26,623 nucleotides of DNA from IMG/VR virus record IMGVR_UViG_3300020395_000087, positions 1-26,623 of that record, one strand, 5' to 3'. The translations under genes were made by a program, and so were the position numbers. The DNA is from a virus. Within the stretch, counting starts at the first letter, position 1. The number at the start of each line of letters is the position of its first letter. Shown here one piece after another: positions 480 through 6,694 of this stretch. Under the pieces are notes generated by a model. It made no database searches and was not told where the DNA came from. It was given only the letters and a program-made list of their open reading frames with translations.

Positions 480-502
480 AGCACCCCACGGGTGCTTTTT
501 TA
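480..502 (+). terminator. Rho-independent terminator
   Basis: A seven-pair stem, AGCACCC (480-486) with GGGTGCT (490-496), has a three-base loop (CAC) and leads into a run of T. It lies just after the three coupled small ORFs and before a gene-free stretch, which is where an operon end is expected. Confidence 0.85.
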
Positions 503-511
503 TTGCTATTA

Positions 512-519
512 TATAAATG
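512..519 (+). promoter_or_regulatory. possible T4-like late promoter box (TATAAATG)
   Basis: TATAAATG matches the T4-type late octamer TATAAATA at seven of eight positions. It sits between the terminator at 480-502 and the hairpin-rich gene-free stretch, a sensible place to start a new transcript. The match is weak evidence alone, because the same 8-mer also occurs by chance inside coding sequence of this A+T-rich genome. Confidence 0.25.
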
Positions 520-856
520 TTGAGGCATCCGTAAGACAGGCAAGGGTGAGAACCAATTCAGAAGGATCTTAAATGACCGTGTATTGAACATGGTGATCGT
601 ACTGTGGAAATCTCTTTAAAACGAACCTCTGCAAACATAAGTCCTCAACACCCGTGGATCAGGGTTTAATCATTTTGAATACGGCATACATGGCATCCCT
701 GAGACTCTACGGAGTGAGGTGACAGTAAGAGAAGTAATTCTCAACCGTCTGTTGTAATTCCTCAACTAGCAGTCAGACATCTGCCTGTACACTTCTTATA
801 TGATTACTGATCCACACCCAACCAATTTACAAACTGGTACACAGTATGCTTTTTTT
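518..856 (+). ncRNA. gene-free, hairpin-rich stretch; candidate structured RNA
   Basis: No plausible coding frame is present. Several pairings are visible on the + strand. TGTTGAGG (518-525) pairs with CCTCAACA (643-650), enclosing about 117 bases. Inside it, ACCGTG (576-581) pairs with CATGGT (589-594), flanked by GATC/GATC (565-568, 595-598). Next come ACTC-TACG-GAGT (704-715, UNCG-type loop, possibly extended by CCT/AGG), GAGAA-GTAA-TTCTC (729-742, GNRA loop), and an imperfect ACCA...TGGT hairpin (821-838). A run of seven T follows at 850-856. Stable tetraloops in succession suggest an RNA that folds. It does not look like tRNA, tmRNA or any riboswitch I recognise. It could instead be a 5' leader of the gene at 900. 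Confidence 0.35.
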
Positions 857-870
857 CTTCGCTGCCTTGC

Positions 871-893
871 TATACTGTGTATGTACTCAAGGA
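871..893 (+). promoter_or_regulatory. -10-like box and Shine-Dalgarno site of the DUF3574-like gene
   Basis: TATACT (871-876) resembles a sigma-70 -10 box. AAGGA (889-893) lies six bases before ATG 900, a good Shine-Dalgarno. The in-frame ATG at 846 has no such site. The ribosome site therefore decides for the start at 900. No good -35 is visible upstream of the -10-like box. Confidence 0.5.
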
Positions 894-2781: not shown

Positions 2782-2919
2782 ATGGCAATTATGAATGGTG
2801 GGAATTACATCCCTGCAAAACCCAAGACAACTCGTCAAGGGATGTCAAAGAATACGAAGCTTAGTGCGTCAGCACGAAATGGGCGTGGGAAACGATACCG
2901 AGGTCAAGGTAGAAAATGA
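2782..2919 (+). CDS. small basic protein, 45 aa
   Basis: ATG 2782 opens a 45-residue frame whose TGA overlaps the HNH start as ATGA (2916-2919). The product is highly basic and Gly/Asn-rich (begins MAIMNGGNYIPAKPKTTRQG, ends GRGKRYRGQGRK), suggesting an extended nucleic-acid-binding or structural tail peptide. The ATGA coupling and the strong Lys/Arg bias support it. I have the impression of similar small basic proteins in other cyanophages but cannot verify this here. Function unknown. Confidence 0.6.
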   Translation: MAIMNGGNYIPAKPKTTRQGMSKNTKLSASARNGRGKRYRGQGRK

Positions 2920-3641
2920 ATACCGATAATACCTCTTCCTCCGACCAAAACGCCGAAAGCTCCGATATGCTTACTGTATTTGGAACTGAAAAGTTCCGTC
3001 CAATCCGTAGATTTGGTAAAACTATACCAAATTATTTTATTTCCGAAACGGGTGAACCTTGGAGTACCAAGGCTGTCTCTACTGGAAAACCACTGGTTCC
3101 CTGTGGTAGAGCAGACATGAAACGAAATGGTAATACTCCAAGAGATTCAAATCATCCAAATTGGTTAAAAGCTTCTAAGGTCTATAGTGCTGGTGCAAAA
3201 GTAGCACCAGATGGTAAACCAAGGAAAGCATACCCTCGTATTAATTGCGTCCTCCCCCATGACTGGTCTGACGATAGATACGAATACCATTATAATAAGA
3301 CTGCTAAAGCACCTCAGATCACAATAGACCTCCATAAGGCAGTTATGGACACTTGGAGACCTATTGATGAGTATCCACCTGATCAGTTAAAGGAAACCTG
3401 GAATGACGTTCCAGAGGTCTGGAGACAGTGGGTTAGGGATACTGTTATCATAGATCATATAGATGGTGATACATGGAATTCCAATGTGGAAAATCTAAGA
3501 TATTGCACACCAAGAGAAAACAACTCATTCGTTAAGGATCAAAAATACTTTGGTAATACACGTAAGAGAGATAAACTCACTGGTGAATATCTAAATAACA
3601 CTAGTGACGAGAATCATTGTGATGAAGACCGACAAGAGTGA
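2916..3641 (+). CDS. HNH (homing-type) endonuclease, 241 aa
   Basis: A Ser-rich leader (residues 1-20) is followed by a NUMOD4-like start (FRPIRRFGKTIPNYFISETG). A helix follows with H140 in IDLHKAVMDTW, matching the 'vHrlva' region before the nuclease. The HNH_3-type core is IIDHIDGDTWNSNVENLRYC (D180, H181, N190, N193), followed by TPRENN. Such enzymes nick or cut DNA using one metal ion. Phages carry them as free-standing homing endonucleases that spread beside their target gene. It starts inside the stop of the small basic gene (ATGA), so it is expressed with the structural operon. No intron boundaries are visible around it. The N-terminus is probably the DNA-binding part. Confidence 0.88.
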   Translation: MNTDNTSSSDQNAESSDMLTVFGTEKFRPIRRFGKTIPNYFISETGEPWSTKAVSTGKPLVPCGRADMKRNGNTPRDSNHPNWLKASKVYSAGAKVAPDGKPRKAYPRINCVLPHDWSDDRYEYHYNKTAKAPQITIDLHKAVMDTWRPIDEYPPDQLKETWNDVPEVWRQWVRDTVIIDHIDGDTWNSNVENLRYCTPRENNSFVKDQKYFGNTRKRDKLTGEYLNNTSDENHCDEDRQE

Positions 3642-4502: not shown

Positions 4503-4895
4503 ATGACGACCAAATTGTCCTTTAAGGACATTAATATCACATTTAAGAAGCATCCTGTTACTAATGACTTAGTTGTTAGTAGGGATGCTTCTGCTATTAA
4601 GCAAGCATTAACTAATTTACTGCTTACTAATAAAGGAGAGCGTCTATTCAACCCAAGATACGGATCAAGCATAAGAAGCTATCTATTTGAACCACTAGAT
4701 TATGGTACTGCAGCTCAAATACAGGCAAATATTGTTTATACTATAAACAAATTTGAACCAAGAGTAGATTTGGAAAATGTTGAAGTAACTCCAGATTATG
4801 ATAATAATGGTTTTGAAGTTGAAATGGTTTACACTATAGATGGCATTGATGCTCCACCTACTGCGGTAGACTTCTTCCTAGAACGAACGAGATAA
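4503..4895 (+). CDS. 25: baseplate wedge protein gp25 (T4-like), 130 aa
   Basis: The GPW/gp25 fold is clear: strands with FKDINITFKKHP and NDLVVSRD, a helix AIKQALTNLLLT, then the hallmark NKGERLFNPRYGSSIRSYLF (residues 43-62), then an LDYGTAAQIQANIVYTINKF helix and paired strands. In T4, gp25 (132 aa) joins gp6 and gp53 in the baseplate wedge and is the sheath-initiator-like component conserved across contractile systems (TssE in T6SS). Length matches. The stop overlaps the gp6 start by one base (TAATG). A hairpin and a late-promoter-like box directly precede it. Confidence 0.95.
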   Translation: MTTKLSFKDINITFKKHPVTNDLVVSRDASAIKQALTNLLLTNKGERLFNPRYGSSIRSYLFEPLDYGTAAQIQANIVYTINKFEPRVDLENVEVTPDYDNNGFEVEMVYTIDGIDAPPTAVDFFLERTR

Positions 4896-6694
4896 TGCCA
4901 TACACTCAATTAAACAATTTAGATTTCGTTGATATCAAAACAACTCTCAAAGAATACATGAGAGCACAAACTGATTTCAGTGATTACGATTTTGAAGGGT
5001 CAGCAATAAGCCAAATCCTTGATGTATTGGCGTATAACACGTATTACACTGCCTTCAATACAAACATGGTAGTCAATGAGTTATTTCTTGACTCAGCGAC
5101 TCTGAGAGACAATGTAGTGTCTTTAGCAAAACAGTTAGGATATAATCCTAAGTCTGTTACTGCACCTAGTGCTACTATAGATTTAGATCTAACCTTTACT
5201 CAAACTGCACCAGCAACTGTTGTGTATAAAGCTGGTAGTGGATTTGTAACAAATTATGATGATACCTTATATCGTTTCGTTTTAAATGAAGATTATGAAG
5301 TAAGTGTTGATAATAATGTTGCTTCGTTTACTGACATAAAGGTATACGAAGGTTCTTTGATGAAAATGACTACATCAGTGGATCTTTCAACAAAACAAAG
5401 ATTTATTATTGAGAATTCTTCAGTTGATACTAATACTATAAAAGTAAAGGTATATCCTTCTGGAAGTTCTGTTAATTTTGATACCTATAAATTGGCAAAT
5501 AATATATTAGATATTGGATCTGATGATAAGGTATTCTTTATTAATGAGCAAGAAGATGAAAATTACGAAATCTTCTTTGGTGATGGTGTTTTGGGAAGAA
5601 AATTAGAAGACGGTGAAGTAGTTGAAATAACTTATATCATAACAAATGGTGTTGCTACTAATGGTGCAAGTAAATTTAAGTTTAATGGTATATTAAATGA
5701 TGAGAATGGTAATGTAATACAACAACCATTTGCTAATTCTAGTTTAATTACGAAATCTATTGCTTCAGGTGGAGCAGACATTGAAAGTATTAGTAAGATT
5801 AAACACAATGCTCCTAAGTATTACGGATCACAAAACAGAGCAGTCACATCAAACGATTACAAGGCAATTGTCAGGAATTTATATCCAGCAGTGAGTGATA
5901 TTATTGTATTTGGTGGTGAAGAGCAAGAACCACCTGCATATGGTAAAGTATTCATTTCTATAAAACCAACAGAAGCATCTAGTTTGTCTTCTTATACAAA
6001 GAATGAATTGGTTAAAGAGTTAAAACAATATACTGTTGCTTCAATCAAACCAGAGTTTGTTAATCCTTCAATTCTTTATCTTGAGTTGGATAGCAAAGTA
6101 TATTATGATGGAAATCAAACAAAATTGATAGAACAGGAAATTGCTGCTAAGGTTGCAACTGGTATAACTGAATATCTTAAAACATCTGATACAGAAAAGT
6201 TTAACGGAAAGTTTAGATATAGTAAATTTATTAGTGTTATTGATAATTGCAATAATTCTATTAATTCTAATGATACTAATATTATTATGAGAAAGGATTT
6301 TATAGCACAGATAAATTCATCTTCATACTATGAAGTATGTTTCCAAAATAAATTCCTTAAAGATTGTGATAGTTCCGTTGTTTCATCCACTGGAATGACA
6401 GTATTTGAATATCCAGAGTATACAACTTACTTAGAGGATAGAGATGGCAAAATAGTCCTATATAGACTAGATTCCTTAACTGGTGAAAAGATATTGTTAG
6501 ATGATTCTGTGGGAACCGTTGATTATGAAAAAGGTGAAGTTCAATTGTACGACTTTACTATTTTAAAAGGTACTTATTCTGATAATCGTATTGAGTTACG
6601 AGTCAAACCTGCTAATAAAGATATTGAAGTTAAACGTGAGGCATATCTAGACGTAGATGTGTCAAAGAGTAAATTTATTGCATATAAAGAGTGA
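4895..6694 (+). CDS. 6: baseplate wedge protein gp6 (T4-like), 599 aa
   Basis: The N-terminus (residues 4-84) matches T4 gp6: a DFSDYDFEGSAISQILDVLA helix with YNTYYTAFNTNM, then TLRDNVVSLAKQLGYNP. Residues about 227-258 carry the baseplate_J signature (FGDGVLGRKLEDGEVVEITY, then NGVATNGAS). Residues about 290-410 hold the second conserved block (GGADIESISKIKHNAPKYYG, NRAVTSNDYKAIV). In T4, gp6 (660 aa) forms dimers that make the continuous inner ring of the baseplate wedges and contacts gp7 and gp25. The start overlaps the gp25 stop by one base; the stop overlaps the next gene as GTGA. The C-terminal part from about residue 480 is less conserved and resembles short strands of the neighbouring proteins. 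Confidence 0.94.
   Translation: MPYTQLNNLDFVDIKTTLKEYMRAQTDFSDYDFEGSAISQILDVLAYNTYYTAFNTNMVVNELFLDSATLRDNVVSLAKQLGYNPKSVTAPSATIDLDLTFTQTAPATVVYKAGSGFVTNYDDTLYRFVLNEDYEVSVDNNVASFTDIKVYEGSLMKMTTSVDLSTKQRFIIENSSVDTNTIKVKVYPSGSSVNFDTYKLANNILDIGSDDKVFFINEQEDENYEIFFGDGVLGRKLEDGEVVEITYIITNGVATNGASKFKFNGILNDENGNVIQQPFANSSLITKSIASGGADIESISKIKHNAPKYYGSQNRAVTSNDYKAIVRNLYPAVSDIIVFGGEEQEPPAYGKVFISIKPTEASSLSSYTKNELVKELKQYTVASIKPEFVNPSILYLELDSKVYYDGNQTKLIEQEIAAKVATGITEYLKTSDTEKFNGKFRYSKFISVIDNCNNSINSNDTNIIMRKDFIAQINSSSYYEVCFQNKFLKDCDSSVVSSTGMTVFEYPEYTTYLEDRDGKIVLYRLDSLTGEKILLDDSVGTVDYEKGEVQLYDFTILKGTYSDNRIELRVKPANKDIEVKREAYLDVDVSKSKFIAYKE

Follow-up and report, generated by a model that had tools for sequence, protein, structure and literature searches.

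Locus and gene context

The window analysed here is the whole stretch of 26,623 nucleotides of IMG/VR record IMGVR_UViG_3300020395_000087, a 26.6-kb virus record that represents a genome fragment of a T4-like cyanophage. The product encoded at 4895–6694 resembles over its full length the gp6 baseplate wedge protein of T4-like cyanophages (identity up to 57.9%). Judged by a gene order like that of P-HM1, a run of small genes holds a gene-free stretch and is followed by the PAAR–gp25–gp6 region. The stretch begins after the intrinsic terminator of the upstream gene, where an earlier note, made from the letters alone, had placed one (Table 1). No ORF of 60 aa is present, in agreement with the absence of a coding frame noted at that time; the longest ORFs that touch 505–845 have 37 aa in a list reaching down to 20 aa, and the ORF that runs from 846 is the gene at 900 extended upstream.

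A −10-like TATTAT box stands at the entrance of the stretch and is absent from the output of a generic promoter scan of the window. At the other end, the weak hairpin recorded earlier at 821–838 and the run of seven T after it were both recovered; they lie outside the two RNA units described below and are a possible 3′ end of the transcript. A second −10-like box separates the RNA from the next gene in the window and also in S-SSM7, where it reads TATAAT.

Table 1. Features of the gene-free stretch and its borders (window coordinates)
Feature	Position	Strand	Details
Intrinsic terminator of upstream gene	480..502	+	480–496, 7 pairs, then TTTTTATTGC
−10-like box TATTAT	507..512	+	from sequence; six bases ahead of basal-stem base 519
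RNA unit A	518..650	+	basal stem 518–525/643–650; the stem listing gives start 519, 131 nt
Domain A core	535..632	+	helix 537–540/627–631 (one bulged base), helix 548–551/611–614; conserved GGCAAGGGTG, TTTAAAACGAACCTC
Module M, seated in domain A tip	559..606	+	helices 560–561/602–603, 565–568/595–598, 576–581/589–594
Module M, non-helical parts			3×3 internal loop 562–564/599–601; bulge UUAAAUG 569–575; loop UAUUGAA 582–588
RNA unit B	654..815	+	9-bp stem 654–662/807–815; 7-bp stem 667–673/800–806
Domain B, outer part	688..788	+	stem 688–690/786–788 plus 692–695/782–785
Domain B, inner part			internal loop UCC/ACAUC; stem 699–701/774–776; model match spans 685–791
Domain B variable cap, hairpins	704..763	+	TACG hairpin 704–715; GTAA hairpin 729–742; basis is pairing only
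Domain B variable cap, helices	716–719/760–763; 721–725/749–753	+	basis is pairing only
CCAATTTACAAACTGG (822–837) and T7 (850–856)	822..856	+	outside units A and B; candidate 3′ end
−10-like box TATACT of next gene (ATG at 900)	871..876	+	from sequence; precedes the same gene in many relatives

Architecture of the two units

The 8-bp pairing that closes unit A and the bulged hairpin inside it, both read from the letters beforehand, are present in the sequence; the hairpin at 565–598 consists of two helices separated by a one-sided bulge of seven bases and ends in a loop of equal size. The TACG and GTAA hairpins were also placed correctly, while the outer stem of unit B was overlooked: both tetraloop hairpins are enclosed by the 9-bp and 7-bp stems of this unit, and corresponding stems were found in four relatives (L004, L007, L046 and L218). 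The proposal of a possible undescribed phage RNA fits the evidence, except that what was taken for a single RNA is a neighbouring pair of units, both belonging to a modular family.

Every pair of the structure drawn for the window is a standard pair; the two outermost pairs of the domain A model do not form there. Folding energy adds little. For 505–860 the z-score is −1.31, 10 of 100 shuffles being equally stable, and with 300 shuffles each it is −1.85 for unit A, −2.31 for unit B and −2.64 for module M, so that the energies are only mildly below those of shuffles. For 516–820 the minimum-energy fold (−82.1) and the comparative fold (−59.1 as drawn, −75.0 when completed) disagree inside both units. 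The case for RNA structure is founded on compensatory changes in relatives, folding energy being weak as sole evidence.

Collection of relatives

A distant blastn search of named phages matched 12 records, of which one, Marine virus AG-345-O18, was informative: its 40 matching bases are the bulged hairpin, each helix of which shows paired substitutions. A further 75 loci were collected via relatives of the gene at 900, and pattern scans of IMG/VR yielded 31 stretches for the hairpin core, 18 for domain A and 18 for domain B. As the records were partly picked for holding these elements, the frequencies given below are not population estimates. Left unused were three stretches that fit the hairpin-core pattern without the flanks of module M (L201, L206 and L208) and one that failed the stem filter (L199); four stretches from the domain A scan (L325, L329, L330 and L334) look like chance. 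A relaxed M pattern returned 100 contig stretches from bacterial genomes, none with the module flanks and none titled Prochlorococcus or Synechococcus; the seven that passed a loose stem filter were taken as chance, and several contigs of one Elusimicrobia genome matched through an apparently unrelated repeat.

As read from their sequences, the relatives share three recurring modules, namely the domain A core, domain B and hairpin module M. The M alignment (A1) comprises all 22 distinct cores. The domain A alignment (A3) contains 16 cores out of 44 distinct instances (one of the 44 being a runaway match) and excludes M-bearing forms, most long caps and near-duplicates; among the excluded rows, those of the window, L058, L141, L213, L324 and L331 are poorer in the named pairs. 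The domain B alignment (A4) contains 19 cores and excludes L218 and the L008, L029 and L330 forms.

Covariation in the three modules

Covariation in homologous regions had been put forward as a check by the earlier note; by a count simpler than that of R-scape, it favours structure in three parts, with scores above shuffled and slid controls in all three modules. The 22 cores of module M align without gaps. Three helices were specified before the count was made, and in these 264 of 264 cells are paired. Six of the 12 pairs are changed on both sides, a number reached in 6 of 500 shuffles, and double-changed cells amount to 31 versus 7.9 in shuffles, with slid structures 26–53% paired. Because loops and CC/GG pairs were prescribed when relatives were searched for, part of their invariance was built in, and only the remaining, free pairs count as evidence. 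The window's own copy matches the M model with 75.3 bits (the window is within the training set), and the model also recovers L027 and L033, where the UAUUGAA loop is swapped for a longer hairpin. A candidate 3-bp contact of the M bulge with the M loop was noted, both strands of which are invariant.

In domain A, 97.5% of the 159 cells of the 16 cores are paired and 6 of 10 pairs are changed on both sides; the covariation score is 0.520 versus 0.121 in shuffles, and slid structures are 44–70% paired. Extending the count to all 43 distinct instances leaves 417 of 430 cells paired, with 13 misses in eight rows, all of them at the outermost two pairs of the base or at the second helix's innermost pair. 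The window, which lies outside the training alignment, matches the model with 32.6 bits (E 2.9e-6). A GGGU–ACCC pseudoknot considered for the compact forms was dropped because long-cap forms lack it.

For domain B, the 19 cores have 96.5% of 227 cells paired, a covariation score of 0.374 versus 0.128 in shuffles and 31 double-changed cells versus 10.0, while slid structures are 28–46% paired. The number of pairs changed on both sides (4 of 12) is not above shuffles, 200 of 500 of which reach 4, nor above one slid version (5). The window matches this model with 45.5 bits (E 1.9e-9; window within the training set).

G·U pairs are frequent at varying positions (13/22 and 12/22 in M, 14/19 in B), which argues for RNA rather than DNA. 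With the compensatory base changes by which a structured non-coding RNA is recognized present, the gene-free stretch looks like it encodes a real structured viral RNA, shared by marine cyanophages and not yet described.

Modularity, copy number and distribution

Module M occurs in 27 distinct 85-base contexts of about six structural kinds. By script, eight of these are in a domain A tip and four in a domain B tip; the other 15, read by eye, comprise nine compact hairpins, each closed by a short basal stem of its own, two copies capping another hairpin after domain A, three closed by a GGCA/GTAAGTCC stem and one alone in a larger unit. The base of domain B carries differing caps as well (M, short hairpins or the window's tetraloop cluster). 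From these contexts it is read that modules are exchanged at hairpin tips, and the locus region itself is a patchwork of small-gene cassettes.

Domain A was sought in sets of 27 and 25 records, 51 distinct in all as G006 is common to both. Matches were found in 15/27 and 15/25 (29 distinct records); 26 of the 51 have exactly one match each of at least 30 bits, while only a weak match is present in G024 and G036 (21.8 bits) and in P-HM2 (23 bits, partial). Second weak matches occur in G008 (20.3 bits, inside the coding gene 3001–3291 of L059) and in G019 (16 bits, opposite strand). Taken from these scores, the domain A core is present in at most one confident copy per record. Module M was found in 6/27 records (one weak) and 7/25, and domain B in 3/27 and 9/25; two copies of each are held by G029, so that neither is strictly single. 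A seemingly single-copy core combined with tip-swapped modules offers a natural experiment on phage RNA evolution.

Among 14 named cyanophages and AG-345-O18, domain A is present in S-SSM7, S-SSM5 and P-HM1, three phages that had come to light by way of this domain, and P-HM2 has part of it. With the stricter filters used there, it was not found in P-SSM2, Syn1, S-RIM32, ACG-2014e, Syn9, S-PM2, S-SM2, P-SSM7, P-SSM4, S-CAM9 and AG-345-O18; of the 11 named cyanophages not picked for domain A, P-HM2 is the only one with a match. T4-like cyanophages are much studied, yet some of their genomes hold this covarying RNA family, which in the three named carriers lies under annotated small hypothetical proteins. 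The overlapping annotations are SSSM7_050 (GU071098), SSSM5_057 (GU071097) and PHM1_076 (GU071101), and the proteins are probably spurious. Domain A lies at 41164–41243 in P-HM1, a phage of Prochlorococcus MED4, and at 41929–41984 in S-SSM7, a phage of Synechococcus WH8109. Since the three carriers have named hosts, expression and function are directly testable.

Promoter spacing and downstream genes

Among the compact forms, 9 of the 15 for domain A and 6 of the 9 for M begin six bases after a TATNNT box. In a further two compact A forms (L326 and L327) and three compact M forms (L002, L205 and L209) the box or a box-like sequence is directly at the stem, and the remaining 4 of the 15 compact A forms are inside larger units. 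A blunt search for promoter-spaced stems was too noisy (305 found versus 217 in block shuffles). Sorted by spacing from the box, 241 and 228 stems occur at 6 and 7 versus 145–205 at other spacings, a modest excess in loci that were chosen for these elements. The whole of S-SSM7, scanned in pieces, has 68 and 93 stems 6 or 7 bases after TATNNT versus 60–88 elsewhere, counts in which leaders as a general class are not clearly evident.

The first ORF of at least 45 aa after domain A was read for 44 of 49 matches. A downstream ORF exists in 42 of the 44, 13 to 331 bases after the match end, and these ORFs, mostly for small proteins, form 20 clusters, a rough count because some ORFs may be spurious. 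The consistent downstream gene or pathway by which riboswitches and other 5′ UTR elements are recognized was not observed for domain A, the only module read in this way; with 42 first ORFs in 20 clusters, domain A does not look like the control of one gene. In ten compact domain A forms, the match ends 22–46 bases ahead of the ORF.

Relation to known RNAs

At gathering scores, Rfam returned no match for the window or for 20 relatives, and when four short stretches were scanned permissively the best match had E 0.093, a chance-level value. The earlier impression that the stretch resembles neither tRNA nor tmRNA nor a group I intron core was upheld, ARAGORN reporting 0 genes in the window and Rfam models giving no match to the intron. 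GOLLD and ROOL are large phage-associated structured RNAs, far larger than the RNA described here, which has no Rfam match. No title or abstract describing modules A, B or M was found in searches of the open-access literature.

The cyanophage RNAs that appear in the available text of PMC9964418, PMC9602691 and PMC2864571 are CfrI, PhotoRC-II, wcaG, manA and the glutamine riboswitch. The manA (RF01745) and wcaG (RF01761) motifs are structured RNAs of marine T4-like cyanophages as well, and they too sit at or close to leader positions; they differ in that their covariance models have no match here and in being tied to metabolic genes (for sugars, nucleotides, exopolysaccharides or photosynthesis), whereas domain A has no fixed gene and is followed by 20 ORF clusters, mostly of small proteins. 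The glnA/glutamine riboswitch (RF01739) and PhotoRC-II (RF01717) are comparable as cis-regulatory RNAs of cyanophages, with the same two differences: no covariance-model match and no fixed downstream gene in the present family. CfrI of S-PM2 is likewise a cyanophage non-coding RNA, but antisense to psbA according to the available part of PMC9602691, whereas the locus here lies between genes.

Interpretation and alternatives

The reading tentatively preferred, to which slightly less than an even chance is given, is that the stretch would encode one non-coding RNA unit, or two side by side, with a promoter in front, acting in trans, protected by a 5′ stem and binding protein through the tip modules. 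Transcription of the unit would be driven by the −10-like box immediately before it. Its 5′ end, locked in the basal stem, would thereby be protected from 5′-end-dependent decay such as that by RNase E, to which a 5′ end held in a stem is resistant. A host or phage protein would dock at bulges and loops conserved in the tip modules, the likely binding surfaces being M's bulge and loop together with the strands conserved in domain A, and the RNA might serve as a scaffold or decoy during infection, with unit A as the core and B and M as accessory binding modules. Paired changes in three parts, varying G·U pairs, the common start after the box and frame-breaking lengths argue for a transcribed structured RNA, and the at-most-single-copy core without a fixed gene favours a role in trans. 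Also in its favour are the second −10-like box and the S-SSM7 spacing scan. Counted against it are the ten compact forms placed close before an ORF as a cis-acting leader would be, the many records without domain A, the weak and second weak matches, the doubled M and B of G029, the both-side count of domain B and the mild folding energies. A bolder version is judged unlikely: it pictures a rearrangeable RNA machine with one core copy and accessory modules, which may share a single long transcript, as in the window, or be dispersed over the genome as separate short 5′ leaders, as in L034, where M and domain A are about 1.3 kb apart, and which would nevertheless assemble or act together as one ribonucleoprotein during infection.

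The proximity of compact forms to ORFs keeps a cis role open, and the units may be 5′ UTR elements that stabilize or regulate their own mRNA via a module-bound ligand or protein, in a riboswitch-like or autoregulatory manner. This is a possible, if somewhat doubtful, alternative. The six-base spacing of most compact forms speaks for it, as does the placement of manA and wcaG in potential 5′ UTRs or their linkage to seemingly regulated genes in the available text of PMC2864571, whereas the gene after domain A varies among phages, none of the 51 records has a second confident copy of domain A, and another −10-like box intervenes before the gene in the window and S-SSM7. That the hairpins are instead recombination or mobile sequences spreading at the DNA level between small-gene cassettes, devoid of RNA function, would suit the various contexts of M, the caps swapped at tips and the cassette patchwork; it is made improbable by the many kept pairs that are G·U, by the single spacing to a −10-like box in most compact forms and by a domain A that is at most single-copy with confidence. 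That the RNA has diverged from a known family to which it still belongs is just as improbable, even though distant members can escape Rfam models and this group of phages also has manA and wcaG (available text of PMC2864571), as the best hit of the permissive scans was an A-rich run of 19 bases (CrcZ). Decayed or small protein-coding genes, a reading that the hypothetical proteins listed over domain A in S-SSM7, S-SSM5 and P-HM1 would suggest and that the earlier note had named as a way to fail, are very hard to credit: instances of domain A differ in length by amounts that are not multiples of three, its helices vary by paired changes, and the window has only the short ORFs given above.

Further conserved elements

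Several other conserved stretches were noticed around these loci. Sequences like CCAATTTACAAACTGG precede neighbouring promoters in relatives, and a repeat like CCAGTTNACAAACTGG/T-CAC, which may be a transcription-factor site, occurs at 822–837 of the window and a short way 5′ of many of these phages' promoters, in some cases separated from them by a terminator. The window at 1655–1740 and L069 at about 5440–5540 share a conserved GGGACTCCTAACC ... CTACAAAAGTATCC .. CGAG .. ATAAATA arrangement ahead of structural genes, noted also in L323 and L397 and with related letters in P-HM1 and P-HM2; it resembles a late promoter region whose upstream part lacks an explanation. The window ORF 2916–3641 has an IDHIDGD...N stretch, which we take to resemble an HNH nuclease, perhaps a homing endonuclease.

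Larger relatives have an extra conserved stretch after domain A or M, GACCTGTAACTC..GAT.GGCATGGAA.TTGC....GGTCAATC with variations (L058 4060–4380, L060 3658–3960, L065 4110–4330, L069 5230–5400 and L401), which is probably a further RNA domain. A closing motif GGGCA ... GTAAG(T/A)CCC surrounds different domains in L025, L058, L060, L204 and L401. Finally, other short stems in L008 (963–1025), L029 (2090–2133) and L056 (2701–2749) share the GTG/CAC base and also lie six bases from a −10-like box, but enclose different contents.
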